This document shows, in pieces, positions 9,428-50,624 of a stretch of DNA of 64,000 bases (position 1 is its first letter; each line of letters starts with the position of its first letter). The notes below the pieces were generated by a model that was not told the origin of the DNA, ran no database searches, and saw only the letters and a list, made by a program, of their open reading frames with translations. Position numbers and translations under genes: made by a program. The stretch spans positions 186,001 to 250,000 of the forward strand of contig BPGU01000002.1 of assembly GCA_026003195.1 (NCBI GenBank), written 5' to 3'. The DNA is from Armatimonadota bacterium (GTDB lineage: Bacteria > Armatimonadota > HRBIN16).

Positions 9428-11518
9428 CTACTCCTCCCCAATCAAACCAAAGTTGCGCACCAGGATGCCGAAATCGAACAGCGTGATCTCCTCATCGCCG
9501 TCGAAGTCCAGCGTCTGGTTCCAGCCTTCATCACCACGCAGCGTGCCGAACGCCTGCACCAGCAACCCGAAGTCGAACAGGGTGACTTCGTTGTCGTTAT
9601 CGGCATCGCCGTTGATGATTCGCAGCATCACTGGTGCACTTCCGGTGCCAGCCGGCGGTACTGACACGTTGGGAGCCAGCGCTCGGAGCCAGTGCGAGAA
9701 CTCATAGTGCTCGCCGAAGCGATCCTGCACATAGCTCTTCACCGCAATGTCGTAAACACCCGGCGTGATACCGTTCAGCTTAAACCAGCCTACTCCGCCA
9801 CCAGCATCCGCCGAGGTATTTACGTTGAGCGCAATGCTCTTGCGGAACAACACGTTCTGGGTTCCCGGCTGGCGGAACTCCAGCGTCAGCGGTGGCGCCA
9901 CGACCCACTCGCCGTCGCCGCTGCCGTACTTATCGGTGCCGAAGAAGCCGTCCAGTATCACCATGCCGTCTATCTGCGGTGCTTCTGCAGGCTCGATCAC
10001 GTACAGCTTGTCCCAGCGCACATAGTACAACTTTCCGCTGGGGCTAACGGCAACCGGCGCACGTGCACCTACCAACAACGCATAGAAATCATACCAGTTG
10101 GGTCCCCAGATACCCGTGTCCAGCTGCCACAGCACCTGTCCCGTCAACACGTCCACAGCGATGACCTGAACGCTCTCGCTGCGCAAGGGGTCATCGTTGT
10201 TGTGGCGGGTCATGGCGATCCAGACCCCGCCCGGGTGCAAACCACCGGTATCCGGCACCAGCTGCGCGAAGTGATGCATCTCTCCCCAATGCGACGGACC
10301 GGAAAGCAGGATGCGATGGGTCAGATTCCCCCGCCCGTCACTGGAGTAGATGCTTACCACGCCGCTGAAGTCCGCCGTGATGATAGACCTGCCGTCCGGC
10401 AACAGCGCGGCGGTATCACAGTAACCATGACCACCGACTTCGTGATACAGGGGGCTACCTGCCCCGTCGGCTGGCCTTAAGGGGTCTAGAACGGATTCTG
10501 CCTTCGCGTTCAGACGCCCCTTCACCGCGCCAGTCGCCACGTCGTACACGGTGAAGGTGTAGCCGTAGTCGCTCCACGATACCTTATACAGCTCGCGGTT
10601 GACCGGCGAATAAATGAGATGGCTGTGGTTGGTCTTCTCCCCAACTGCCCTCCAGGCGATTTCACCGGTAGCAAGGCTAATGCCAAAAACGGTCTCATCA
10701 CCTACCCTGTTGGAGGAGACGCTGGTGAAAATGCCAGGTACAGCTGTGGTACCAGCTGGGAACGCATCCGGCACGATCGTGAACGCCTGGTTGGGCGTGT
10801 GCACAGGGTCTCCTGAGCTCACCGGCACACCTTCAGGCATCTGATAGTCCTGCATGAACGTTATAGTGCCGTTTGCCGCGTTGATCGCCACGGCAGTAAT
10901 CACCGTGATGTCCTCCTCACCGGTGCTCTTGCGCCAGGGCTCCGAAGCGGCGTACAGTGTACCATTTGCCAGAGCCAGTGCACACGACCAGTTCACCGGT
11001 CCCGCAGGCAGCGGCACGGTCCAGAGGGTTGCACCGGTGTTCTTGTCCAGCGCGGCGATAACCGGGCGCGAACCGGGCCCCGCTTTGCTGAACTGGCATC
11101 CCACCGCGTACACACGCTGCTGACCAACAATCAACCCCCCCCAACCGCGAAAGTGTCCGAACAGGTTGTCCGATTTCCACCTGAGGTTGCCGTTCGGATC
11201 CAGCGAGTAGATACTAACGGACTCGGTTGCGCTGGGGGTAGGCTCGTTGTTGCTTCCGCGCCAATACAGGTTGCCCTGCGAGTCGAACAGGATCTGGCTG
11301 TGGAAGCCATGGCGCGGAGGCTGCGCTCCCGCAGGCAGCGGGATCTCCCGGAGCACTGCTCCGCCGCTGTGGAAGAGGTAAGGTGCGGTGGTCACATTGG
11401 TGCCGTAAATGTCTGCGTTCTTCAGCGCCCAGGGTCCATCGGGGTTATCGCCCTGTGCCCACACAGCACCGCTCATCAGCAGGAGCAGCGCAGCCAGTGA
11501 AACGAACCGAGCTTTCAT
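9428..11518 (-). CDS. Secreted beta-propeller protein with dockerin-like C-terminus, copy 1
   Basis: 696 residues. A signal peptide (about 1-21, MKARFVSLAALLLLMSGAVWA) precedes PQQ-type blades such as VIAALDKNTGATLWTVPLP and VIAVDVLTGQVLWQLDTG. A beta-sandwich-like region about 520-635 (LTLEFRQPGTQNVLFRK) follows, and the C-terminus has two copies of an acidic Ca-loop-like unit, GDADNDNEVTLFDFG and DFDGDEEITLFDFG. These resemble type I dockerin repeats. A strong Shine-Dalgarno (aaaggagggtg) fixes the ATG at 11518. The next gene is a paralog of the same architecture. Probably exported and bound to the surface or an extracellular complex; ligand unknown. Confidence 0.85.
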   Translation of the reverse strand: MKARFVSLAALLLLMSGAVWAQGDNPDGPWALKNADIYGTNVTTAPYLFHSGGAVLREIPLPAGAQPPRHGFHSQILFDSQGNLYWRGSNNEPTPSATESVSIYSLDPNGNLRWKSDNLFGHFRGWGGLIVGQQRVYAVGCQFSKAGPGSRPVIAALDKNTGATLWTVPLPAGPVNWSCALALANGTLYAASEPWRKSTGEEDITVITAVAINAANGTITFMQDYQMPEGVPVSSGDPVHTPNQAFTIVPDAFPAGTTAVPGIFTSVSSNRVGDETVFGISLATGEIAWRAVGEKTNHSHLIYSPVNRELYKVSWSDYGYTFTVYDVATGAVKGRLNAKAESVLDPLRPADGAGSPLYHEVGGHGYCDTAALLPDGRSIITADFSGVVSIYSSDGRGNLTHRILLSGPSHWGEMHHFAQLVPDTGGLHPGGVWIAMTRHNNDDPLRSESVQVIAVDVLTGQVLWQLDTGIWGPNWYDFYALLVGARAPVAVSPSGKLYYVRWDKLYVIEPAEAPQIDGMVILDGFFGTDKYGSGDGEWVVAPPLTLEFRQPGTQNVLFRKSIALNVNTSADAGGGVGWFKLNGITPGVYDIAVKSYVQDRFGEHYEFSHWLRALAPNVSVPPAGTGSAPVMLRIINGDADNDNEVTLFDFGLLVQAFGTLRGDEGWNQTLDFDGDEEITLFDFGILVRNFGLIGEE
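9458..9597 (-). repeat. 140-bp module identical to 11701-11840
   Basis: These 140 bases encode most of the dockerin-like C-terminus of copy 1 and are identical, base for base, to 11701-11840 in copy 2, whereas the rest of the two genes is clearly diverged. This points to recent gene conversion or module shuffling. Confidence 0.85.
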
Positions 11519-11637
11519 CTTGCACCCTCCTTTTCTCCCATTCGAGACTGAATGCGCAGTGCATCTATGTCAACACCCTCTGCAGCATGACAAGTCAGCA
11601 CTCACTGCAGAGCGACAACACTGCCTCCTTTCTTGAA

Positions 11638-11662
11638 GGCAGGAGGGCATTACCCTCCTGCC
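11638..11662 (-). terminator. Terminator-like hairpin after beta-propeller copy 2
   Basis: A 10-base-pair perfect stem (GGCAGGAGGG, 11638-11647, with CCCTCCTGCC, 11653-11662) and 5-base loop lie just past the stop of the gene at 11671. There is no long U-tract on the minus strand. Confidence 0.5.
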
Positions 11663-11670
11663 CTGTTGTC

Positions 11671-13704
11671 TTAGTCCTCGCCGATCAAGCCGAAGTTCTG
11701 CACCAGGATGCCGAAATCGAACAGCGTGATCTCCTCATCGCCGTCGAAGTCCAGCGTCTGGTTCCAGCCTTCATCACCACGCAGCGTGCCGAACGCCTGC
11801 ACCAGCAACCCGAAGTCGAACAGGGTGACTTCGTTGTCGTCGTCGGCGTCGCCTGCCAGCATAGTCAACGAAACGGTCACGCTACCTGTGCCGTTCGCCG
11901 GCACCACGACGCCAGGTGCCAGTGCGCGCAGCGTGCGCGTGAATTTGAATGTCCGGCCGCCGTCCCATGGGAAGAACTGGATATACTCCTTAGCGGCGAT
12001 ATCGTACGTGCCTGCCGGGATGTTGTTCAGCCTGAACGTGGCGATTCCGCCGTCAAGCTGGGGCATCGTCAGCGCGACCGTTTTACGGAACAGCACGTTG
12101 GTTGTACCGGGCTGCCGGAACTCCAGGGTCAGCGGTATCATCGCCGTCCAGCTGCCGTCACCGCTGCCGGTGTTCATCGGTCCCACGTAGCCCGGCATCT
12201 CCACCGCGCCTTCGATCTGCGCCGCCTCAACCGGCGACAGGATATGCAGCACGTTATCCGGCGTCATATAGTAAACTTTGCCGCTCGGTCCCACCACCGC
12301 GCCGCCACGCAGGTCTGACTGACTGGCGCGCTGAGTGTCATACTGCCACAGCACCTGCCCTGTCCGGGTATCCACTGCGATAATCATCGAAGTCTGCCCG
12401 GTTTCAGAGCGTTCCGAACGGGTAGCGGTCAGCCATACCGCAGGAGACTCCTGGAACTGGGGACCTGTAGACGGCATGGACACCAGCAGTTGCGCCATGT
12501 TGTGGAACTCGCCCCAGTACGACGCGCCCTGCGTCAGGATGCGCCCCGTATACGCTCCCGACTCGTCCCGCGTGTACAGAGCAACCACACCGCCAAAGCC
12601 CGCGGTAATCACCGAGGTGCCGTCCGGCAACAGCGCAGCGGTGTCCGCATAGCCATGTCCGCCGATATTGCTCCACAGCCACGAGCTGGAAGACTCCAGT
12701 GACTGCAGAGGGTCAATCATGGACACACCGTTCCAGCTGGACTGGTGCTTCACCGCTCCGGTCGCCGGATCAAAAGTAGCGATGGTCTGCCCGTAATCGC
12801 TCCAGGAGACCTTAATGAGCTCGTTGGTCACCGGTGAGTAGATGATGTGGCTGTGGAACGCTTTGCCCGACGAAGCTGTCCAGTAGCTGCCTGTTGCCAG
12901 GTTGATGCCAAACACGGTGGGAGCGGTCGGGTCGCTCGGAGAACGGTCTGTCGTGAAGTACAGCCCGTGTGCGCCTGCCCCGAATGCATTAGGCACGATG
13001 GTCAGCGAGGTGTGCGGAGTGGCGGTCCACCCGCCTTGCGACACTGTGACATCGTACCGTTTAAGCACGTTGCCGTTTGCCGCGTTCAGAGCGTAGATGG
13101 TGACCGTCGGGATGTCTTCTTCCCCGGTAGAGCGCAGGTAGTCGCGCGTGGCAACATACAGCACCCCGTCGTACAGCGTCGCCGCCCAGCCCGGTTGTCC
13201 TTCAGGCAATACCTTTGTCCAGAGCGTTGCCCCGGTATTCTTATCCAGCGCAGCGACCACCGGTGGGCTACCGGTACCCGCCTTGCCGTACTCCGCGCCG
13301 ATCCCGTATACAGCGTTCTGCCCAACGATAGGTGACGCGCCAGGCCAGTTGCCGAAGATGCTATCGGATTTCCAGCGGAATGTGCCATCGGCGGTAAACG
13401 AGTAGATACGCACGCTGTTGTTGGGAGCATCCGCCCCAATGCTGCCTCGGAAGTAGATATTCCCTTCGGAGTCGAACACCGTTTGCACTTCATAGTGTCC
13501 GCCCGAACGGATGGCATAAGCGGCAAGGTCCACGGGTGTGTCCACCCATCCACCTGCCGTAGGCAGCTGCCATACTGGGAACGCATTCGTGGCATAGATG
13601 TCGGCGTTTTTCACGCCCCAGGGTGAATCGAGGTTGTCTTGCGCACTGGTCGTCGCCCATAACACCAGCGGCAACGCCAGCAGCACGAGCCAGCGTGCTT
13701 TCAT
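11671..13704 (-). CDS. Secreted beta-propeller protein with dockerin-like C-terminus, copy 2
   Basis: 677 residues from ATG 13704, which follows aaaggaggg; the frame is open 24 codons further but without a ribosome-binding site. A signal peptide (about 1-21, MKARWLVLLALPLVLWATTSA) leads into SPWGVKNADIYATNAF, parallel to GPWALKNADIYGTNVT in copy 1. PQQ-like blades VVAALDKNTGATLWTKVLP and IIAVDTRTGQVLWQYDTQ follow, then EFRQPGTTNVLFRKTVAL and the same C-terminal pair of acidic LFDFG units. Tandem paralog of the gene at 9428; likely secreted, function unknown. Confidence 0.85.
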   Translation of the reverse strand: MKARWLVLLALPLVLWATTSAQDNLDSPWGVKNADIYATNAFPVWQLPTAGGWVDTPVDLAAYAIRSGGHYEVQTVFDSEGNIYFRGSIGADAPNNSVRIYSFTADGTFRWKSDSIFGNWPGASPIVGQNAVYGIGAEYGKAGTGSPPVVAALDKNTGATLWTKVLPEGQPGWAATLYDGVLYVATRDYLRSTGEEDIPTVTIYALNAANGNVLKRYDVTVSQGGWTATPHTSLTIVPNAFGAGAHGLYFTTDRSPSDPTAPTVFGINLATGSYWTASSGKAFHSHIIYSPVTNELIKVSWSDYGQTIATFDPATGAVKHQSSWNGVSMIDPLQSLESSSSWLWSNIGGHGYADTAALLPDGTSVITAGFGGVVALYTRDESGAYTGRILTQGASYWGEFHNMAQLLVSMPSTGPQFQESPAVWLTATRSERSETGQTSMIIAVDTRTGQVLWQYDTQRASQSDLRGGAVVGPSGKVYYMTPDNVLHILSPVEAAQIEGAVEMPGYVGPMNTGSGDGSWTAMIPLTLEFRQPGTTNVLFRKTVALTMPQLDGGIATFRLNNIPAGTYDIAAKEYIQFFPWDGGRTFKFTRTLRALAPGVVVPANGTGSVTVSLTMLAGDADDDNEVTLFDFGLLVQAFGTLRGDEGWNQTLDFDGDEEITLFDFGILVQNFGLIGED
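11701..11840 (-). repeat. 140-bp module identical to 9458-9597
   Basis: Second copy of the perfectly conserved stretch encoding the dockerin-like double Ca-loop; see the partner at 9458. Confidence 0.85.
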
Positions 13705-13746
13705 TGCGAACCCTCCTTTACTGGATAGATGTGTTCTGTTCAAAGC

Positions 13747-13787
13747 GGGGGCGCTGTGGCTCGAATGAGACACCACAGCGTCTCCCC
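13747..13787 (-). terminator. Interrupted hairpin after the first prepilin-like gene
   Basis: CGCTGTGG (13752-13759) pairs with CCACAGCG (13773-13780), with an outer GGGG/CCCC clamp separated by a small bulge. It lies just downstream of the gene at 13796 on the minus strand. No U-tract, so its terminator role is tentative. Confidence 0.35.
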
Positions 13788-37132: not shown

Positions 37133-38029
37133 TTAATCCACCACAAAAATCACGCGGTAATCGTTCAGAAAGCCCGAGGATTCGTTCGCGGTGAGAAGCA
37201 GGCGGACATCGTTGTCCGACAGCACCGGGTCGCAGCGCCCGGGCGTTTTGGCATAACCTGTCGCCCGCAGAATCAGCGGGTTGGTTCCCGCACGCCGGTT
37301 CGCCTTTGCCTCTTCCAGCGTCTTCGCATATGCCACGATACCCTGCTCAATCACAAAATCCGGGCTGGCGTTGACCGTGCCCCACACCTCACTGCCGTCC
37401 GTACGGCGAATCTTCGGGCTCATCGCAGGGCGGATGCCCAACCCGCGTGTGTCGATGATGACGCTGGTATAGGCGTTACTGGCAACCTGCGGAGGAGCAA
37501 CAGGTTGCGCCACAGGTTTGGTCACCACCGGTAGAGGCGCACTCGGCTCGGAAGACTTCGCCGCCACCTCCGGCAGGATAATCCGGCTGAGCCCCTCCTC
37601 ACCGTACAGACGTACTGCCATCGTCACCTCTACTGCCGGCGCACCGTTGAGCGTTATGGTTCGCTCGTTCACCACCTCTGCACCCTTCACAAAGCCGCGA
37701 ACCTCGGTGCGAATCCGTTCGTTCTGCACCTCGAAGTCTTCCGCATAGGCAGTGGCGTCCACACGCACCCTGTCCGTCACCATCAGCAGGTTCTCCAGAG
37801 CCGTCATGACGGCATAGCGGCGTGCCTTGAGATACGCCTTCGCTTTGTTGGGCTCGTTGGTCGGTATCGCGCCGATGCCCTTGCCGTAGATGACGCCGTA
37901 TTGCCAGTCTATCTTACCTTTATCCCCGATTTTCTCTACCAGACCTACCATCTGGCTCTGCGGCGCCTTGCCCTGCGCCAGCGCCGTCGCGCATACGACA
38001 AGGACGATGCACATAACCCCGTACCTCAT
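37133..38029 (-). CDS. Secreted LPP20/FlgP-like protein with DARGLG C-terminal domain
   Basis: 298 residues; signal peptide about 1-18 (VLVVCATALA). The middle, KAKAYLKARRYAVMTALENL through VRLYGEEGLSRIILPE, has the pattern of LPP20/FlgP lipoproteins, though there is no lipobox. After a Pro-rich linker, the final ~110 residues start YTSVIIDTRGLGIRPAMSPK and end NDYRVIFVVD. They align with the end of the protein at 39190 (IVDARGLGARRSINPVVVDI, ending WRVVILVD) and resemble the C-terminal domain of FlgT. Last gene of the four-gene minus-strand operon. Periplasmic or outer-membrane associated. Confidence 0.75.
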   Translation of the reverse strand: MRYGVMCIVLVVCATALAQGKAPQSQMVGLVEKIGDKGKIDWQYGVIYGKGIGAIPTNEPNKAKAYLKARRYAVMTALENLLMVTDRVRVDATAYAEDFEVQNERIRTEVRGFVKGAEVVNERTITLNGAPAVEVTMAVRLYGEEGLSRIILPEVAAKSSEPSAPLPVVTKPVAQPVAPPQVASNAYTSVIIDTRGLGIRPAMSPKIRRTDGSEVWGTVNASPDFVIEQGIVAYAKTLEEAKANRRAGTNPLILRATGYAKTPGRCDPVLSDNDVRLLLTANESSGFLNDYRVIFVVD

Positions 38030-38102
38030 CTCCGAAAACCTCCTTCGTGTTTTCCTGTCTTTGCGTTCGATTCGTCAGCGCTCGTTCGGCAGTCCCTTGC
38101 CC

Positions 38103-39188
38103 TCATCGTAACGCCAGACGAATCAAGCTGGGCGAATAGCGCAAAAGAACCACTCGCTTACCACCTACCTGCAGGCGCAGCAGCTGCCTGCGGAACAGAG
38201 CGGGCGTCAACCGCACCACAGCATCCACCACCCCATCACCCGCCTCCATGCGCTCACGCTCCACGCTCACCACGCCTCGAACCCCGCGCAGCCTGTCTGA
38301 AAACTGAGAAAGGGTTCGATAGTCCGCTCCACGCACCACCAGCCGCACGCGCAACCCGTTCTGCAGCTGACCGATCCATGCGCTCAGGACCCGCTGCCCC
38401 AGCGCCGCTTTACCCTCTTCCACCAGCTCCCTTCCCAGCGTTTGCAGGGCTTCCCGACGCGCTGCCTCGTTCGAATCGAAACTGAAACCGGTCGCCTCCC
38501 AGCGAAAAGGAGGCACAATCACCGCCCCTGTATCCGCCCACACCACGCGCACCTCGCCGTACGCCTTCTGGGTCGCTACCACTTTGCCCAGCCCATACGG
38601 GGCTTCCTGGTCACCCAGGCGGATCCCTGTTTCCGTGCGCACCGTGCCGGTTATCAGCACCTCTGCGGGGTTGCTTGAACCCTCCGCGACATCGAAGCCC
38701 CGTACCCGTAGAGCGTGTACCAGTGCAGCAGTACTGACCGGCTCAGGCTGCCGTGTATCGGCAGCAAGTAGTTTCACGCCGACGCGGGGACGCTCTAAGG
38801 CGACGTACACCTCCGGTATTTCCCAGAGGTCCTTGACTGCGTCCGCAGTGCTGACTACAGCTCGAATCCGCACTTTGACCAGTCCATTGCGTGTATCCCA
38901 CTCCGGCTCGCCCAGCAACTCCCACCGTTTGACGTAGCCCTGACTGCGGGTGCGTATCGTTTCCCAGACGACCTCGAAGTTCTGTGCCACAGCCTCCGAG
39001 TCTACCAGCACACCCAGCGCCTGCTCTACCGCGTTGCGCTTGGCATCCAGCACTGCCTCCTCTATCGCTGCAGCGCGGTCGCTGCCGATTGCTGCCATGC
39101 CGGAGGCGATGATTTCTACCTCGGATTGCGCTCCTGCAAAGGCAGTGCCAGCCAGCGCAAGGGCAAGTATAGCCATGAGCGAGCGCAT
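38103..39188 (-). CDS. Secreted FlgT-N/LPP20-like protein
   Basis: 361 residues from ATG 39188; the stop of the preceding gene lies 2 bases from its start, so it is tightly coupled. Signal peptide about 1-19 (ALALAGTAFAGA). The segment SEVEIIASGMAAIGSDRAAA, EEAVLDAKRNAVEQALGVLV and TRSQGYVKRWELLGEPEW matches the N-terminal domain of FlgT and related LPP20-like proteins. A nucleotide-free alpha/beta region follows (KLLAADTRQPEPVSTAAL ... VRGFDVAEGSSNPAEVLITG). Probably periplasmic, acting together with the FlgO-like and DARGLG-domain proteins beside it. Confidence 0.75.
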   Translation of the reverse strand: MRSLMAILALALAGTAFAGAQSEVEIIASGMAAIGSDRAAAIEEAVLDAKRNAVEQALGVLVDSEAVAQNFEVVWETIRTRSQGYVKRWELLGEPEWDTRNGLVKVRIRAVVSTADAVKDLWEIPEVYVALERPRVGVKLLAADTRQPEPVSTAALVHALRVRGFDVAEGSSNPAEVLITGTVRTETGIRLGDQEAPYGLGKVVATQKAYGEVRVVWADTGAVIVPPFRWEATGFSFDSNEAARREALQTLGRELVEEGKAALGQRVLSAWIGQLQNGLRVRLVVRGADYRTLSQFSDRLRGVRGVVSVERERMEAGDGVVDAVVRLTPALFRRQLLRLQVGGKRVVLLRYSPSLIRLALR

Positions 39189-39189
39189 T

Positions 39190-40488
39190 TTAGTCCACCA
39201 GAATGACCACTCGCCAGAATCTGAGAAAGTCACTTTGCTTTGCGGCTTCCCGAACACGTTCGGCGTCCTCAGTGGTGATGACCACATTATCTTTGCCGAC
39301 ACCTTTCACGCCTATCGCGCGAACATATACCGGGTTCTCGCCCGCTCGTTGGCTTTGATCCTCCGTTTTCACGAAATCTACGATGCCATATTGCTGGATG
39401 TATTCCATTGGCGGCAATTTGTTCACGTCCGGGTAAATCTTGTTCCCCTGGATATCTACCACCACCGGATTGATACTGCGCCGCGCCCCTAATCCCCTGG
39501 CATCCACTATCAGCCCTGTCCACTGATTAAAAGTTACCCGCACGGTCGGGGGTGGTGGAACTAAACGGGTCAGGAGCCACGCCAGCTGTCGACGCGTCAG
39601 CACTTGATGCTGTAAGGTTTCCTCAATACTATGGATGTAACCCGGTTGCAGCGCCTGATAGACATACGGACGTGCCCAGGGTGGAAGACGCGCGAGTGCG
39701 CCTTCTGCGTAAGGCTGCTCGACAAACTGTTCGGGGGGAAGAGCCATTCGGGTCAGCGCGACCACGGCGCGCAGCGCGTTCATCAGGTCGCCGGGGCGCG
39801 AGGTATCTACCTCCAGCTTGCCCTCCCATTTTCGTGCGGTGGCAAGACGGGAGAGCACCCGTGCAAAATCGCCCACTGTCACCGGCTTATCCGGCAAGAA
39901 GTAGCCGTCCGGCGTCCCCAGCATCCAGCCCTGCTGCACTACATACAGTATCTCCGGGTCATCTTTCGCATCCACTATCCGCACGTTCTCAGACGGAGGT
40001 TTATCGTCATTGGGTTCCACGGAAGCCAGCTCCTGCCCCGTCAACCGCAGGTGCAGACGGTTTGCCAGATCGCCGAGCAGAGCATGCAGGTTGTTGATCT
40101 TGCCCCGCACGTTTTCCGCCCCTCCTGCCATCACCTTGCCGGTGCGGACATCCACTACCCTCGCGTTGATGACTATCTGGTCGCCGTGCGTGTAGAAACT
40201 GCCCACAATAATCGCGTCGGCGCCGACCAGTTTGCCCACCCTTCGGGCTTGAGCGGGTTCCGTCAAACCGGTGCTCTGGAGACGCAGCTCCCGCAACGCC
40301 TGACCGAGCTGTGCACGCTCCACCAACGTGATACGCTCCGATTTCGCTAAATCCGTGCCCAGAGTCTCCGCGATCGCCTGCCCAATCTCCACCGGCTTAC
40401 CTGCAAAGTCGCTGACTGCGATGACCTCCCCCGCAGCATGGACCATCCCGGCACAGAGCAGGAGACCTAGCAGCCATAGCCGCCACAT
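39190..40488 (-). CDS. FlgO/CsgG-like protein with SLH-like segment and DARGLG C-terminal domain
   Basis: 432 residues; signal peptide about 1-18. The FlgO/CsgG-like domain spans about 20-155 (GTDLAKSERITLVERAQLGQ, LVGADAIIVGSFYTHGDQ, VINARVVDVRTGKVMAGG). The middle has SLH-like helices and turns (GTPDGYFLPDKPVTVGDFAR, VLTRRQLAWLLTRL). The end is a domain shared with the protein at 37133 (LIVDARGLGARRSINPVVVD ... FLRFWRVVILVD). It combines in one chain three modules that occur separately elsewhere in the operon. Likely outer-membrane or peptidoglycan-associated. Confidence 0.78.
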   Translation of the reverse strand: MWRLWLLGLLLCAGMVHAAGEVIAVSDFAGKPVEIGQAIAETLGTDLAKSERITLVERAQLGQALRELRLQSTGLTEPAQARRVGKLVGADAIIVGSFYTHGDQIVINARVVDVRTGKVMAGGAENVRGKINNLHALLGDLANRLHLRLTGQELASVEPNDDKPPSENVRIVDAKDDPEILYVVQQGWMLGTPDGYFLPDKPVTVGDFARVLSRLATARKWEGKLEVDTSRPGDLMNALRAVVALTRMALPPEQFVEQPYAEGALARLPPWARPYVYQALQPGYIHSIEETLQHQVLTRRQLAWLLTRLVPPPPTVRVTFNQWTGLIVDARGLGARRSINPVVVDIQGNKIYPDVNKLPPMEYIQQYGIVDFVKTEDQSQRAGENPVYVRAIGVKGVGKDNVVITTEDAERVREAAKQSDFLRFWRVVILVD

Positions 40489-40517
40489 AACACATCCTCC
40501 TTTCTAGTCTAGGTTTA

Positions 40518-41516
40518 TCATGCCCCCGCAGTTACAGACGGTACTGCCACAGCAGGCGTTATCTTGTGCTGTAGTTGCTCTTCCGCCATCTTCAGCAGCA
40601 ACGCAAACTGGGCGCGGGTGAGGGGCTTACGCGGCGTATTGCCCAGCCATGCCACTGCCCACTCGGGTACGTCCAGGAAATAGGTGGGTTTGTTGCCTGT
40701 AACCAGCGCACCCAGAATACGTGCTGCATCCATTCGGCTAATATGGTTATCGCCGTCACCCGAGGGGAAGTAGCGTGTATCGTCCCTGTGGTAACGCCGG
40801 GCAAGGCGGCGCAGGGTTTCGTAGAAGTAACGTTCCGTTACAAGCTCGTACGGACGGAACGAGCCATCGGCAAACAGCCTCATCCAGCCCCTCGCCAGCG
40901 CACGGGCAATCGCCGCGCTTTCCGGCAGGTTTTCCCAATCGGGTGCAGGCATCGACGGGGTACTGCGCAGGACAAGGTTCGTATCGGGGGAGGTCTCACC
41001 TGTAGGGGAAACCGCAGGGGGCACAGCGCAACCGGGCAGGCTTTCCCCGGTCAGCTGATAGTGCAGACGATTCGCCAGCTCGTGCGCCAGCGCGAAAAGC
41101 TCGTCGCTCCAGCCCTCCACGTTCACCGCTGCGCCGGCATACAGCGCGCCGGTGCGCACATCCAGCACTCGGGCGTTCAGAATCAGCCTCTGCTCGTTGA
41201 CGCTGAGGCTACCGATCACGACGTGGGTTGCCCCGATGATTTTGCCCGCTCGCGCCATCTCGCCGTTTTCGGTGAGCCCCGTCCTCTGCAAGCGCAGTTC
41301 ACTGAATACCTGCCTCAGCTGCGCCCTTTCCACCAGAGTGATCTTGCGCGACTTGGCAAGGTCGGTCAGAACAATCTCAGTCGCCGCCTGACAGAGAGCA
41401 GAACTGTCACCGACGAAATCGGAGACCGCAAGCACCAGGGGAGTTTGCTCATCCCTCGCCGGGGCGACCAGCGCCGCGATAACAAACAAAACAATGCACG
41501 ATAGCCTGCGAACCAT
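40518..41516 (-). CDS. FlgO/CsgG-like protein with SLH-like segment
   Basis: 332 residues; signal peptide about 1-20 (VLFVIAALVAPA). The FlgO-like domain has VLTDLAKSRKITLVERAQLR, IIGATHVVIGSLSVNEQR and ILNARVLDVRTGALYAGAA, nearly parallel to the neighbour at 39190. A Pro/Ser linker and an SLH-like region with RMDAARILGALVTGNKP and KPLTRAQFALLLKMAEEQL follow. It lacks the DARGLG domain. First gene of the operon, directly after a strong promoter. FlgO in Vibrio is an outer-membrane protein at the flagellar base; no flagellar genes are seen here, so the function is probably different. Confidence 0.78.
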   Translation of the reverse strand: MVRRLSCIVLFVIAALVAPARDEQTPLVLAVSDFVGDSSALCQAATEIVLTDLAKSRKITLVERAQLRQVFSELRLQRTGLTENGEMARAGKIIGATHVVIGSLSVNEQRLILNARVLDVRTGALYAGAAVNVEGWSDELFALAHELANRLHYQLTGESLPGCAVPPAVSPTGETSPDTNLVLRSTPSMPAPDWENLPESAAIARALARGWMRLFADGSFRPYELVTERYFYETLRRLARRYHRDDTRYFPSGDGDNHISRMDAARILGALVTGNKPTYFLDVPEWAVAWLGNTPRKPLTRAQFALLLKMAEEQLQHKITPAVAVPSVTAGA

Positions 41517-41546
41517 CGTTCACACCTCCCCTCCCGGGATGAATCA

Positions 41547-41575
41547 GTTATACACCGCCAAGCGGAGGTTGTCAA
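41547..41575 (-). promoter_or_regulatory. Promoter of the FlgO/FlgP/FlgT-like operon
   Basis: On the minus strand, TTGACA (41570-41575) and TATAAC (41547-41552) are 17 bases apart, one mismatch from consensus. Transcription would start near 41540, about 24 bases before the ATG at 41516. Confidence 0.75.
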
Positions 41576-41719: not shown

Positions 41720-42925
41720 ATGAACGCCCAGGATTTACTCGCTACCGCTGACAGTCGCATCGAGAAGGTTCGTAAGGCGGATGTCACCGTGAAAGTGGTG
41801 AATAAACAAGGGAAGCCGATAGAGGGCGCACAGGTGGAAGTCCAGCAGACACGCCATGCTTTTTTGTTCGGCTGCAATATCTTCCCCCTGTTCAACTACC
41901 AGGGCGAACAGCACGAAAAGTACGGGAGTCAGTTCGCCGCCCTGCTGAACTACGCGACGCTGGCTTTCTACTGGGGCGCCTATGAACCGGAGCGCGGTCG
42001 CAAAGGGCGCGACTTGCAGGAGCGCATCGCTCGCTGGTGCCAGCAGCGAGGCATTATCACCAAGGGACATCCTTTAGTCTGGCATGAGGTCTTTCCCCAA
42101 TGGGCACCCAACGAAGTGGACGCGGTGAAGCCGCTCTTGCGAGACCGTGTGAAGGAGATTATTTCCCAGTTCAAAGGGCTGATAGACCGCTGGGATGTGG
42201 TGAACGAGGCTACCGTCTCCGAGAGATTCAACAACGGTGTGGGCAACTGGGTGAAACGCGATGGCGCGGCTGCGATGGTGACAGAGTGTCTGCAATGGGC
42301 ACGCGAGGCTCACCCGAAAGCCATCCTGCTCTACAACGACTTTAACATCAGTCCTGCCTTCGAGCAGCTGGTGGAGGAGCTCATACGACGCAAGGCTCCT
42401 TTCGACGCTATCGGCATCCAGTCCCACATGCACGGGGGCGAGTGGCCGCTGGAGAGAGCGTGGCAGGTGTGCGAAACCTATTCGCGCTTCGGCAAACCGC
42501 TGCACTTCACCGAAGCCACCGTGCTGTCCGGCGAACATGGTTTCAATCGCCCGCGCCCCTGGCCCACCACCCCAGAGGGTGAAGCACGTCAGGCGGACTA
42601 CGTGGAGAAGTTCTATACTATTCTCTTCTCGCATCCAGCCGTAGAAGCCATCACCTGGTGGGATTTCATGGACGGCGGGTGGATGGGGGCGCCTGCGGGG
42701 CTGGTTCGCGCCGACCTCAGCCCGAAACCCGTGTACCACCGCCTGATGCGACTGATTAAGGGCAAATGGTGGACGCAGGATACATTGCGCACTAACACGC
42801 GCGGGGAGGCGAAAATGCGCGGCTTTCTGGGCGATTACCGCGTGACCGTCAACTCACCCGCCGGCAAACGCACGCAGCAGTTTACCCTCCAGCGCGGCAA
42901 GAACGAGTGGGTGATCAAGCTGTAA
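41720..42925 (+). CDS. GH10 endo-1,4-beta-xylanase, no signal peptide
   Basis: 401 residues. A short N-terminal beta segment (VTVKVVNKQGKPIEGAQVEV) is followed by the GH10 barrel: GCNIFPLFNY, TLAFYWGAYEPERGR, GHPLVWHEVFPQW, the acid/base Glu163 in RWDVVNEATVSERF and the nucleophile Glu265 in LHFTEATVLSGEHG. Aromatic subsite residues are seen in ITWWDFMDGGWMGAP. A beta-sandwich tail ends the chain. It hydrolyses xylan or xylo-oligosaccharides. There is no signal peptide, so it is either cytoplasmic, acting on imported oligosaccharides, or exported by another route. ATG 41720 follows caggagg. Confidence 0.9.
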   Translation: MNAQDLLATADSRIEKVRKADVTVKVVNKQGKPIEGAQVEVQQTRHAFLFGCNIFPLFNYQGEQHEKYGSQFAALLNYATLAFYWGAYEPERGRKGRDLQERIARWCQQRGIITKGHPLVWHEVFPQWAPNEVDAVKPLLRDRVKEIISQFKGLIDRWDVVNEATVSERFNNGVGNWVKRDGAAAMVTECLQWAREAHPKAILLYNDFNISPAFEQLVEELIRRKAPFDAIGIQSHMHGGEWPLERAWQVCETYSRFGKPLHFTEATVLSGEHGFNRPRPWPTTPEGEARQADYVEKFYTILFSHPAVEAITWWDFMDGGWMGAPAGLVRADLSPKPVYHRLMRLIKGKWWTQDTLRTNTRGEAKMRGFLGDYRVTVNSPAGKRTQQFTLQRGKNEWVIKL

Positions 42926-47420: not shown

Positions 47421-48579
47421 TAGTAGTGCGTCAATGCTCTATCTTATGGTATCCTATAGCAGTCTTTCCCTACCACAAGGAGGTCAAACCGATGAGACGT
47501 TACGCAGTGCATCTACAACCCGAAGAGCGAGAGCAACTGCTGCGCATGACCCGCTCTGGCAGAGCACCAGCCCGCCAAATCACCCGCGCCCGCATTCTGC
47601 TCAAGGCAGACGAGGGGATGCGTCATGATGTCATTGCGGAGCAGTGCGACGTGAGCACAGTGACCGTCACCACCGTCTGTCGCGAGTTCCAGACGCTGCG
47701 GGTAGGTGCGGTAGAGCGCAAGCGTCCTCAGCGGGTGTATGCGCGCAAGTTGGACGGGGAAGCGGAGGCGTATTGGATTGCTCTGGCGTGCAGTGCTCCT
47801 CCAGAGGGTCGGGTGAGTTGGACCTTACGTTTGTTGCGCGATGAGATGGTGCGTTTAGGGATAGTGGGTGAAGTCTCTCATGAGACCATTCGTCAGAGGC
47901 TGAAAAAAACGAGTTGAAGCCTTGGTGGCAAGAGACCTTTTGCATTCCACCGGAGCAGAATGCGTCTTTTGTGTGTCCGATGGAGGAGATTTTAGACCTG
48001 TATCATCGTGCCTATGACGCGCGTTATCCGGTATTGTGTTTGGAGGAGATGCCGGTGCAGTTGTTGGGGGAGTGCCGGGAGGCGTTGCCGATGGAGGCGG
48101 GCAAGGTACGTCGGGAGGACAACGAGTATGAGCGTTGGGGCACAGCGAGCCTGTTCATGGTGTTTGAGCCGTTGGCGGGCAAGCGTTTGGTATGGGTGCG
48201 TGCGCGTCGCACGGCGTATGACTGGGCGGAGGTGATGCAGCAGGTAGCGGATGAGTATTATCCGGATGCGGAGCGGATAGTGATGGTGATGGACAATCTG
48301 AACACGCATCATTTCTCGTCGTTGTTTCCCTGCGCAGGAGGCGTGGCGTTTGCGGCAGCGTTTTGAGTTCCACTACACTCCGGTTCACGGCAGTTGGTTC
48401 CACGTGGCGGAGATAGAGTTCAGCGTGTTAGCGCGTCAGTGTTTAGCTCGTCGGATAGGGAGCCTGGGTGCGTGCCCGCAATGGGTCTGGGGTTCGTGTG
48501 GACTGGCAGTTCACGACGGCGGATGCTCGCATCAAGTTGAAGCGTCTGTATCCAAAGATTGACGATTGACAGACTACTA
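47421..48579 (+). mobile_element. IS630-family insertion sequence, decayed
   Basis: Terminal inverted repeats of 15 bases with 13 matches are seen at 47421-47435 (TAGTAGTGCGTCAAT) and, reversed, 48565-48579 (TAGTAGTCTGTCAAT). The outermost TA on each side is the expected TA target duplication of this family. The interior carries one transposase gene with frameshifts. Confidence 0.85.
47492..48569 (+). pseudogene. IS630 transposase, frameshifted
   Basis: The first part (47492-47917, MRRYAVHLQPEEREQLLRMT ...) is the helix-turn-helix half, ending at RLKKTS. An A7 run at 47903-47909 allows a -1 shift into the frame KNELKPWWQETFCIPPEQN, the usual IS630 continuation. This could be programmed frameshifting, as known in related elements. 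In the second part the first catalytic Asp is replaced (LCLEEMPVQLL), and VMDNLNTHHFSSLF is followed by another frameshift before AWRLRQRFEFHYTPVHGSW. A third break precedes the end VDWQFTTADARIKLKRLYPK. With several lesions the transposase is almost surely dead. Its stop overlaps the right inverted repeat. Confidence 0.85.
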
Positions 48580-49118
48580 TGTTTATTTTGTATTCCTCAA
48601 TGCGGCTCATCGTGCCACCTCGAACCGTAAACTTGGCATTCTTTAAAACCAAAGCCCGGTCTTGTTCCTATGCCTTGCTTCTATCTTAGTATGCTATTGC
48701 AAAATCTGTCAAGACCTGTGGAGGGTGTTCGAAAATTCCTCTTTTCGAGGGGCAGACACGCAGGTCTGCCCCTCCAGATTGCGCAGGGTGGGATGTAGGG
48801 GCGCACCGGCGTGTGCGCCCTTCTGTTCCTACAATCCCGATTTTCGAACAGCCGCGCAAACAGCTAAGGGTGAAAAAAGCAGAGGGCGCTTTTCGGTTTA
48901 CTCCACACAAATACACGATTTCGCCGATTTTCCCCGAAATTACCCCTTCCCTCTGTAACATTTTTGGGTATACTCTGGATGGGAATAGAGGGATGGCAGC
49001 GAGCAGAGCTCATTGCCCTTCCCGAAATCTTGAAACCTTGTTGCCGCCACTTAGTCGTGGGGGCGCGGCGGGACTTCTCCGCCACAAACAGCACACTAAC
49101 GAGAGGAGGAATAGAACG
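48580..49118. other. Intergenic region with repeats upstream of the HAF-repeat gene
   Basis: The first 130 bases are AT-rich with no clear gene. 48713-48853 is a palindromic repeat element. A TATACT (48969-48974) with poor -35 is a possible promoter for the gene at 49119, which has a good Shine-Dalgarno (gagaggaggaatag). Confidence 0.5.
48713..48853. repeat. Palindromic repeat element with two internal hairpins
   Basis: The ends are inverted repeats: GTTCGAAAAT (48727-48736) and ATTTTCGAAC (48840-48849). Inside are two hairpins, GAGGGGCAGAC/GTCTGCCCCTC (48747-48757 with 48764-48774) and GGGCGCAC/GTGCGCCC (48799-48806 with 48813-48820). Its end sequences recur at 51688-51734. Confidence 0.7.
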
Positions 49119-50624
49119 ATGAAACGAGAGCACAGTCTCCGGGTAGTGTCGGCACTGTTGGTATGGAGCGTGCTGCTGAGTGTAGGAACCCGTGTAGAGG
49201 CGCAATCGCTGACCTGGCTCGGCACGCTGGGCGGTGATTTGAGCTTGGCGCATGGCGTTTCTGCGGACGGCGCGGTGGTGGTCGGCGGGGCACACAACGC
49301 CAACTGGCAATGGCGTGCCTTTCGCTGGGTAGCGGGTGTCGGGATGCAGGATCTCGGCACGCTGGGCGGTGATCGGAGCGAGGCGTATGGCGTTTCTGCG
49401 GACGGCGCGGTGGTGGTCGGCTGGGCATACAACGCCAGCGGGCGTGATCGTGCCTTTCGCTGGACTTCATCGGGCGGGATGCAGAATCTCGGCACGCTGG
49501 GCGGTGATTTTAGCTATGCGTATGGCGTTTCTGCGGACGGCGCGGTGGTGGTCGGCTATGCATTCAACGCCAACGGGCAAAGGCGTGCCTTTCGCTGGAC
49601 GGCGTCGGGCGGGATGCAGAATCTCGGCGTGCTGCCGGGCGGTGTTCGGAGCGAGGCGTATGGCGTTTCTGCGGACGGCGCGGTGGTGGTCGGCTTGGCA
49701 GCCAACGCCAGCAGTCAAGTGCGTGCCTTTCGTTGGACTTCATCGGGCGGGATGCAGGATCTCGGCACGCTGGGCGGTAATTCGAGCCAGGCGCATGGCG
49801 TTTCTGCGGACGGCGCGGTGGTGGTCGGCTATGCATTCAACGCCAGCGGGAATGGGCGTGCCTTTCGCTGGACTTCATCGGGCGGGATGCAGGATCTCGG
49901 CACGCTGGGCGGTGATTTTAGCAATGCGTATGGCGTTTCTGCGGACGGCGCGGTGGTGGTCGGCTATGCATTCAACGCCAACGGGCAAAGGCGTGCCTTT
50001 CGCTGGACGGCGTCGGGCGGGATGGAAAACCTGAATATCACCTACGCCAGCCTGCTCACCAGCGGCTCGTGGCTTGATATTGCTTTCGCTATCTCGCCCG
50101 ACGGACGCTATATTGTGGGAGAGGGCTCCAACGCCGCCACAGGGCGTTGGGAAGCGTACCTGCTGGACACCCGGACCGCCTTCCGCATCAGTGGCAATCT
50201 GCAACTGCGTGACTATACCGGTGATCCGGCGCAGGTGCCCATCACGGTTCAACTACGCCAGAACGGCAGTACCGTCCGCACCGAAACCATTTACACCGAT
50301 GGCAGTGGGAACTACAGCATCCCCAACGTGCAGGTGGGCACGTATGACGTCGCCTTCAAAGCCAGCCACTGGCTACGTGTGGTGGTGCGTGGGATCACGG
50401 TGCACAACGATGTGACGGGTGTGAACGCCTCCCTGACCAACGGTGACATCGACGACGACAACGAGGTGACCCTGTTCGACTTCGGACAGCTGGTTACCGC
50501 TTTTGGTAGCGTGCCGAGCGACCCGAACTGGAATCCGAATGCCGACCTGGATGGCGACGAGGAGGTCACCCTGTTCGACTTCGGCGTGCTGGTGCGCAAT
50601 TTCGGTGCGATGGGGGATGAATAA
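49119..50624 (+). CDS. Secreted HAF-repeat protein with dockerin-like C-terminus
   Basis: 501 residues from ATG 49119. Signal peptide about 1-29 (LSVGTRVEAQ). Six to seven near-identical 45-residue repeats follow, each holding LGTLGGDxSxAYGVSADGAV then VVGxAxNAxGxxRAFRW. These are typical of extracellular HAF-repeat proteins and probably form a beta-propeller. A carboxypeptidase-regulatory-like domain (LRDYTGDPAQVPITVQLRQN) precedes the C-terminal pair of acidic Ca-loop-like units, DIDDDNEVTLFDFG and DLDGDEEVTLFDFG. The tail is of the same type as in the beta-propellers at 9428 and 11671, suggesting a common surface anchor or sorting target. Confidence 0.85.
   Translation: MKREHSLRVVSALLVWSVLLSVGTRVEAQSLTWLGTLGGDLSLAHGVSADGAVVVGGAHNANWQWRAFRWVAGVGMQDLGTLGGDRSEAYGVSADGAVVVGWAYNASGRDRAFRWTSSGGMQNLGTLGGDFSYAYGVSADGAVVVGYAFNANGQRRAFRWTASGGMQNLGVLPGGVRSEAYGVSADGAVVVGLAANASSQVRAFRWTSSGGMQDLGTLGGNSSQAHGVSADGAVVVGYAFNASGNGRAFRWTSSGGMQDLGTLGGDFSNAYGVSADGAVVVGYAFNANGQRRAFRWTASGGMENLNITYASLLTSGSWLDIAFAISPDGRYIVGEGSNAATGRWEAYLLDTRTAFRISGNLQLRDYTGDPAQVPITVQLRQNGSTVRTETIYTDGSGNYSIPNVQVGTYDVAFKASHWLRVVVRGITVHNDVTGVNASLTNGDIDDDNEVTLFDFGQLVTAFGSVPSDPNWNPNADLDGDEEVTLFDFGVLVRNFGAMGDE
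49222..50030 (+). repeat. 135-bp tandem repeats coding for HAF units
   Basis: The sequence GGCGTTTCTGCGGACGGCG recurs at 49254, 49389, 49524, 49662, 49797 and 49932, giving a period of 135 bases (138 once). Units starting at about 49500 and 49908 are almost identical over more than 110 bases, showing recent conversion or slippage. Confidence 0.9.

Follow-up and report, generated by a model that had tools for sequence, protein, structure and literature searches.

Accessory rings of the bacterial flagellum are the closest described counterparts of the locus analysed here, in particular the Vibrio H-ring, with FlgO, FlgP and FlgT, and the basal disk of Campylobacter jejuni, with its protein FlgP. 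In the FlgP family, the capacity to form rings is reported to track with an insert that separates the SHS2 helix from the second strand, and the basal disk has been called comparatively ancient (PMC12222027). A third counterpart is Tp0624 of Treponema pallidum, whose domains D1 and D2 have been described as one functional unit, the fold of D2 being previously unseen (PMC5104382). Here we describe an operon of four minus-strand genes, P1–P4, in a 64,000-nucleotide stretch of DNA from an Armatimonadota bacterium (the window, to which unprefixed coordinates refer), in which CsgG/FlgO-, FlgT- and FlgP-type parts are combined with SLH-like repeats and with Tp0624-D2-type domains. The best explanation, which we hold to be about evenly balanced between right and wrong, is that the operon encodes a general, peptidoglycan-tethered periplasmic ring or disk scaffold for which flagella are not required. 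P1–P4 represent a conserved envelope module, with a possible flagellar role in the host.

Domain architecture of the operon

The features, all on the minus strand, are as follows (base pairs, bp).

41547..41575, minus: sigma-70-type promoter TTGACAACCTCCGCTTGGCGGTGTATAAC (TTGACA-N17-TATAAC, 17-bp spacer), read from the sequence, 30 bp upstream of the P1 start codon
40518..41516, minus: P1 (332 residues), exported, CsgG/LpoB/FlgO-like domain and two degenerate SLH repeats
41127..41447, minus: P1 CsgG/TolB_N/FlgO-type domain (residues 24-130; Pfam CsgG 5.5e-9, LpoB 4.3e-6, TolB_N 5.6e-4)
40836..40919, minus: P1 SLH-like repeat 1 (GWMRLFADGSFRPYELVTERYF...; PF00395 1.4e-3, under cut-off)
40587..40676, minus: P1 SLH-like repeat 2 (...LDVPEWA...PLTRAQFALLL; motif and conservation)
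39190..40488, minus: P2 (432 residues), exported, CsgG/FlgO-like domain, two degenerate SLH repeats and Tp0624-D2-type domain
40114..40422, minus: P2 CsgG/FlgO/TolB_N-type domain (residues 23-125; CsgG 1e-11, FlgO 2e-5, TolB_N 5.6e-5)
39862..39969, minus: P2 SLH-like repeat 1 (residues 174-209; PF00395 8e-4, slightly under cut-off)
39559..39684, minus: P2 SLH-like repeat 2 (...VLTRRQLAWLLTRL), degenerate, by motif alone
39193..39525, minus: P2 Tp0624-D2-type ('DARGLG') domain (homology to the P4 C-terminus; 5JIR 8.6e-4)
38103..39188, minus: P3 (361 residues), exported, FlgT-like, SHS2/FlgT_N domain with hairpin insert, TolB_N-like middle domain and further C-terminal domain
38847..39119, minus: P3 SHS2/FlgT_N-type domain (residues 24-114; model, Foldseek and FlgT_N matches in the family)
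37133..38029, minus: P4 (298 residues), exported, FlgP/LPP20-type SHS2 domain and Tp0624-D2-type domain
37583..37918, minus: P4 SHS2/FlgP-type domain (residues 38-149; FlgP 9HMF 1.8e-13, other FlgP chains 1e-4 to 4e-3)
37136..37474, minus: P4 Tp0624-D2-type ('DARGLG') domain (residues 186-298; 5JIR_B 1e-16)

The four genes form one operon with intergenic gaps of 29, 1 and 73 bp, the start of P3 lying one base past the stop of P2, and are transcribed away from a GH10-like gene at 41720. Strong ribosome-binding sites precede P1, P2 and P4. The promoter agrees with the consensus at 11 of 12 positions, and when nine members of the genus are aligned, its -35 and -10 blocks are seen to be kept and the flanks to have diverged; a strict promoter scan was empty because it demanded T at the final -10 position. 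Each protein begins with an apparent signal sequence, as judged by reading the sequence and not by a predictor. Inspection by eye revealed no lipobox in any of the four, and the anchor would therefore be the wall rather than lipid, unlike that of the lipoprotein FlgP.

P1 and P2 are paralogues (39% identical), and in both of them CsgG outscores FlgO among the Pfam matches. P2 passes the curated cut-off for FlgO (PF17680; 24.9 versus 22.6 bits), as a member of a family in which 8/8 proteins match, whereas P1 falls below it (1.5e-3, 18.8 bits). The SLH scores in P1 and P2, 19.0 and 19.8 bits, are likewise below the curated cut-off (PF00395, 20.8 bits); SLH recurs in nine of 11 P1-type proteins (best 5.3e-5) and five of eight P2-type proteins. 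The CsgG match covers approximately positions 33–99 of the 210 in the profile, the C-terminal half with the transmembrane hairpins of the pore being unmatched. Since the match is confined to the first half, a pore is unlikely, and the identification of P1/P2 as CsgG pores was rejected, the soluble part alone being matched.

P3 itself gave no convincing Pfam match, FlgT_N included; of the 12 proteins in its family, 4 have a FlgT_N match (best 1.9e-7). The closest PDB entries found by Foldseek for its AlphaFold2 model (mean pLDDT, a per-residue confidence score, 77.6) are FlgT 8Z5N (3e-9) and FlgT 3W1E (2e-8), followed by CsgG, and P3 also matches the FlgP profile (2.3e-4). Global TM-scores are low (0.27), so the likeness is one of domains and not of whole shape. 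In its predicted fold P3 is FlgT-like, with FlgT_N and FlgT_M folds.

The profile alignment of P4 with FlgP (9HMF) crosses the hairpin-insert region, where the P4 model (pLDDT 70) has predicted hairpin strands at residues 88-94 and 104-110, at low confidence; an alignment of this model with Tp0624 spans 288 columns. P2 and P4 have their C-terminal domain in common (34% identity over 127 residues), and by sequence this 'DARGLG' domain is domain 2 of Tp0624. FlgT_C (PF16538) had no match in P1–P4, nor was it listed for the families A1, A4, A5 and A6, and for want of a profile match it was ruled out as the identity of the domain, Tp0624 domain 2 being matched at 1e-16. A preliminary description of this DNA had taken the domain for FlgT-C-like, which has to be replaced by Tp0624 domain 2. 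Its other structural proposals agree with the data presented above: one promoter leading to four secreted proteins, supported by TTGACA-N17-TATAAC and four co-directional genes with apparent signal sequences; two FlgO/CsgG-like proteins with SLH-like segments; an LPP20/FlgT-N-like protein; and fusion of the P4 C-terminal domain to one of the FlgO-like proteins. Its reading of FlgO-, FlgP- and FlgT-type parts as neighbours, probably in an envelope ring or anchoring structure with SLH-like ties to the wall, is likewise retained.

Two observations concern these domains elsewhere. D2 has been reported solely together with D1, with no free D2 (PMC5104382); unlike that report, free Tp0624-D2-type domains occur as exported proteins of 170-180 residues near P4 in family f35, at the following loci.

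L058:7642-8169: stand-alone Tp0624-D2-type protein
L059:3643-4155: stand-alone Tp0624-D2-type protein
L063:10675-11211: stand-alone Tp0624-D2-type protein

The host also has another CsgG-family protein (CsgG 2.2e-31) with a true FlgT_C (PF16538, 1.9e-8) at G000:C4:226398-227375 (L046:6398-7375, minus strand), at 226.4 kilobases (kb) on contig C4, apart from both the P1–P4 operon and the flagellar clusters that were read.

Flagellar genes and comparable sets in the phylum

The host organism is flagellated. Its genome (G000; 4.58 megabases in 29 contigs) was inventoried through family searches, which identified FliG, FlgI, FlhA and the flagellins, and through two gene clusters, in which the remaining genes, FlgH too, were named from their translations. 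Contig C4 carries FlgB-FlgC-FliE-FliF-FliG-FliH-FliI-FliJ, contig C1 carries FlgG, FlgA, FlgH, FlgI, FlgK, FlgL, FliW and CsrA, and contig C2 carries FlhA; two flagellins are also present. No P1–P4-like genes were found in the two clusters, and when the genome was searched with P4 as the query, the only matches were P4, P2 and P3. The view in the preliminary description of an operon without flagella genes thus applies to the locus and fails for the genome, which has a dispersed flagellar set. That description had also stated that a complete flagellar cluster elsewhere using these proteins as its sole FlgO, FlgP and FlgT would refute its proposal, and the host goes part of the way there: since its genome is flagellated and P3 and P4 are the only FlgP/FlgT-like genes found in it, the operon may serve the flagellum in this host.

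A comparable three-part set, consisting of CsgG/LpoB-like, FlgT-like and FlgP-D2 proteins, exists in genomes without detectable flagellar genes. FliG, FlgI, FlhA and flagellin all lacked a match in G237 (91% complete), G015 (95%) and G016 (85%). In G237, genes of the P4-, LpoB- and P3-like types are consecutive and two further P3–P4 pairs occur, while in G015 and G016 the P4-like, CsgG-containing and P3-like genes lie near one another; in G018 (90% complete) P4 adjoins what is apparently the same middle gene. The P3-like protein of G015 matches FlgT_N, and that of G237 does so below the cut-off. The flagellum-less label requires six changes on the tree of P4, and the three copies of G237 form one branch within the flagellated family f35. 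The proposal in the preliminary description of an envelope ring or anchoring set unrelated to motility gains support from these relatives, but the host itself is flagellated.

Our survey covered 291 Armatimonadota genomes, those with FliG or FlgI being counted as flagellated. P4-like genes are present in 72 genomes, FliG in 195, FlgI in 187, and either marker in 200. Of the genomes with P4-like genes, 56 are flagellated and 16 are not; FlhA was not found in any of these 16, nor flagellin in the seven of them that were checked. Gene order varies by group, with P1-P2-P3-P4 in the genus of the host (HRBIN16-type Armatimonadota), P2-P3-P4 in families f9 and f8 and P1-P3-P4 in f17. A contig search with query A2 returned 19 loci from records titled as Armatimonadota or as unnamed bacteria, and a plasmid search revealed no P4 on plasmids.

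A proposed general scaffold and its alternatives

In the proposed scaffold, the parts would be the CsgG/FlgO-type proteins with SLH repeats (P1 and P2), the FlgT-type protein (P3) and the FlgP-type protein (P4). From the alignment of P4 with FlgP through the insert, and from the hairpin found there at low confidence in both models, we infer that P3 and P4 may polymerise via the SHS2-inserted hairpin to form a ring or disk beneath the outer membrane. The SLH repeats of P1 and P2 would tie this ring to peptidoglycan, and the D2 domains would couple P2 to P4, likely serving as glue. In flagellated hosts the scaffold may additionally brace the flagellar L/P ring. Both ring formation and the machine to be served are inferences. 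In G225 a gene directly upstream of P4 (L091:8418-9767) encodes FlgT_N and a CsgG/FlgO domain as one naturally fused protein, which supports P1/P2 and P3 working together, and the sigma-70-type promoter was counted in favour of a flagellum-independent role.

Several points weigh against this explanation. The SLH motifs of P1 and P2 are degenerate, and the confidence of the hairpin is low in the P3 and P4 models (pLDDT about 36–66). The flagellum-less genomes are draft assemblies, with four independent flagellar markers missing in each one that bears the set, and the middle genes in G237 (LpoB, slightly under the cut-off) and in family f6 (CsgG within a 670-residue protein) are at most candidate orthologues of P1/P2. 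The closest relatives of the operon are all in flagellated genomes, and P3 matches above 100 bits fall in flagellated genomes in 26/26 cases, versus 174/265 of the remainder (Fisher 7e-5, uncorrected for kinship), although this threshold tracks the query's own families, which are few, and narrowly leaves out G237 at 96 bits.

The last of these points also supports the strongest alternative, namely that the operon encodes a flagellar accessory ring or disk, equivalent to an H-ring or basal disk, away from the flagellar clusters, and that the copies in flagellum-less genomes have been repurposed. This is consistent with the flagellar gene complement of the host, in which P3 and P4 are the only FlgP/FlgT-like genes found, and with G241 and G242, where 4–7 kb separate P4 from genes of the FlhF/FlhG/FliA type, FlhA lying farther on in G242. 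However, these two genomes belong to one genus (g132), no flagellar query homologue is near P4 at any other locus screened, and this neighbourhood was accordingly rejected as proof of a flagellar link. P4 is missing from many flagellated genomes, including family f16, and the association of any P4 with flagella is weak (56/72 versus 144/219 flagellated, p = 0.06). Moreover, G237 has kept and tripled the P3–P4 pair with no detectable flagellar genes, and the operon promoter is of the sigma-70 type. We consider a flagellar accessory ring rather unlikely.

The assembly could instead be a collar for the secretin ring of type IV pili or type II secretion, bound to peptidoglycan through the SLH repeats. 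The case for this comes from bacterium HR15, where PilM, a small gene occupying the PilN/PilO position and a secretin come after P1-P3-P4 in the same orientation, as well as from the presence of secretins in 15/15 genomes checked, flagellated or not.

L052:5044-12422 and L081: P1-P3-P4 with PilM/secretin locus, bacterium HR15

The linkage to PilM and secretin is, however, found in a single lineage and was rejected as proof of a pilus link, and in G212 the neighbour that resembled a secretin proved to be an STN-TPR protein. Because secretins occur in every genome tested, their co-occurrence does not discriminate, and we regard a secretin collar as improbable. That P1/P2 function in the manner of LpoB or CsgG, regulating peptidoglycan synthesis or forming a pore for secretion, with P3/P4 as soluble partners, is highly improbable, since, although both are among the Pfam matches of P1/P2, the CsgG match lacks the pore-forming half and LpoB scores modestly, in P2 right at the cut-off.

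Three further observations fall outside these readings. In G204 a protein with caspase-type (Peptidase_C14) and SLH domains is encoded upstream of a P4-like gene (L117:6588-8780). Within the window, two adjoining paralogous large exported proteins (9428-13776, minus strand) have a dockerin-like tail, DxDxDNEVTLFDFGxLVxAFG, that recurs at 48813-50624, and two adjoining open reading frames at 47426-48366 (plus strand) resemble a split transposase, with a helix-turn-helix part and a DDE-like part.

Comparison with known systems

FlgP belongs to a broad family. Relatives that carry comparable sets, some with flagellar genes and some without, make it possible to examine whether the accessory rings of flagella were recruited from an older ring of the envelope, and flagellar rings may have been drawn from a more general cell-envelope ring or scaffold. 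More specifically, and tentatively, a flagellum-independent envelope ring with FlgO-, FlgP- and FlgT-type parts, Tp0624-D2 glue and SLH wall ties could exemplify the structures that were recruited to make H-rings and basal disks, and could also explain what the D1-D2 unit of Tp0624 does; we lean somewhat against this broader scenario. The link between the 'DARGLG' domain and Tp0624 D2 gives an uncharacterised Treponema domain a genomic context and candidate partners.

Like the Vibrio H-ring, the operon combines a FlgO/TolB_N-type domain, a FlgP-type SHS2 domain and a FlgT-type SHS2 domain with a middle domain. Unlike the H-ring, it lies outside a flagellar gene cluster, its products have no lipobox that we could see, its FlgO-like proteins bear SLH repeats and Tp0624-D2 domains have been added; furthermore, comparable sets are not confined to flagellated cells, as would be expected of a Vibrio-type H-ring, occurring as they do in G237, G015 and G016. 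The SHS2 domain of P4 is homologous in sequence to that of the C. jejuni basal disk protein FlgP (9HMF), through the hairpin-insert region, but P4 has the extra C-terminal D2 domain and, as noted, lacks a visible lipobox. With Tp0624 (5JIR) P4 shares D2 by sequence, any likeness of its remainder to D1 being structural only; unlike P4, Tp0624 carries a C-terminal OmpA-like domain, and, unlike in Tp0624, D2 is here also fused to a CsgG/FlgO protein with SLH repeats and stands alone in family f35. P1 and P2 resemble the curli transporter CsgG and LpoB in their periplasmic alpha/beta domain and differ from CsgG in the unmatched pore-forming half. The FlgO-, FlgT- and FlgP-type parts are themselves known, and what is new is the addition of Tp0624-D2 and SLH and the existence of comparable sets without flagellar genes.

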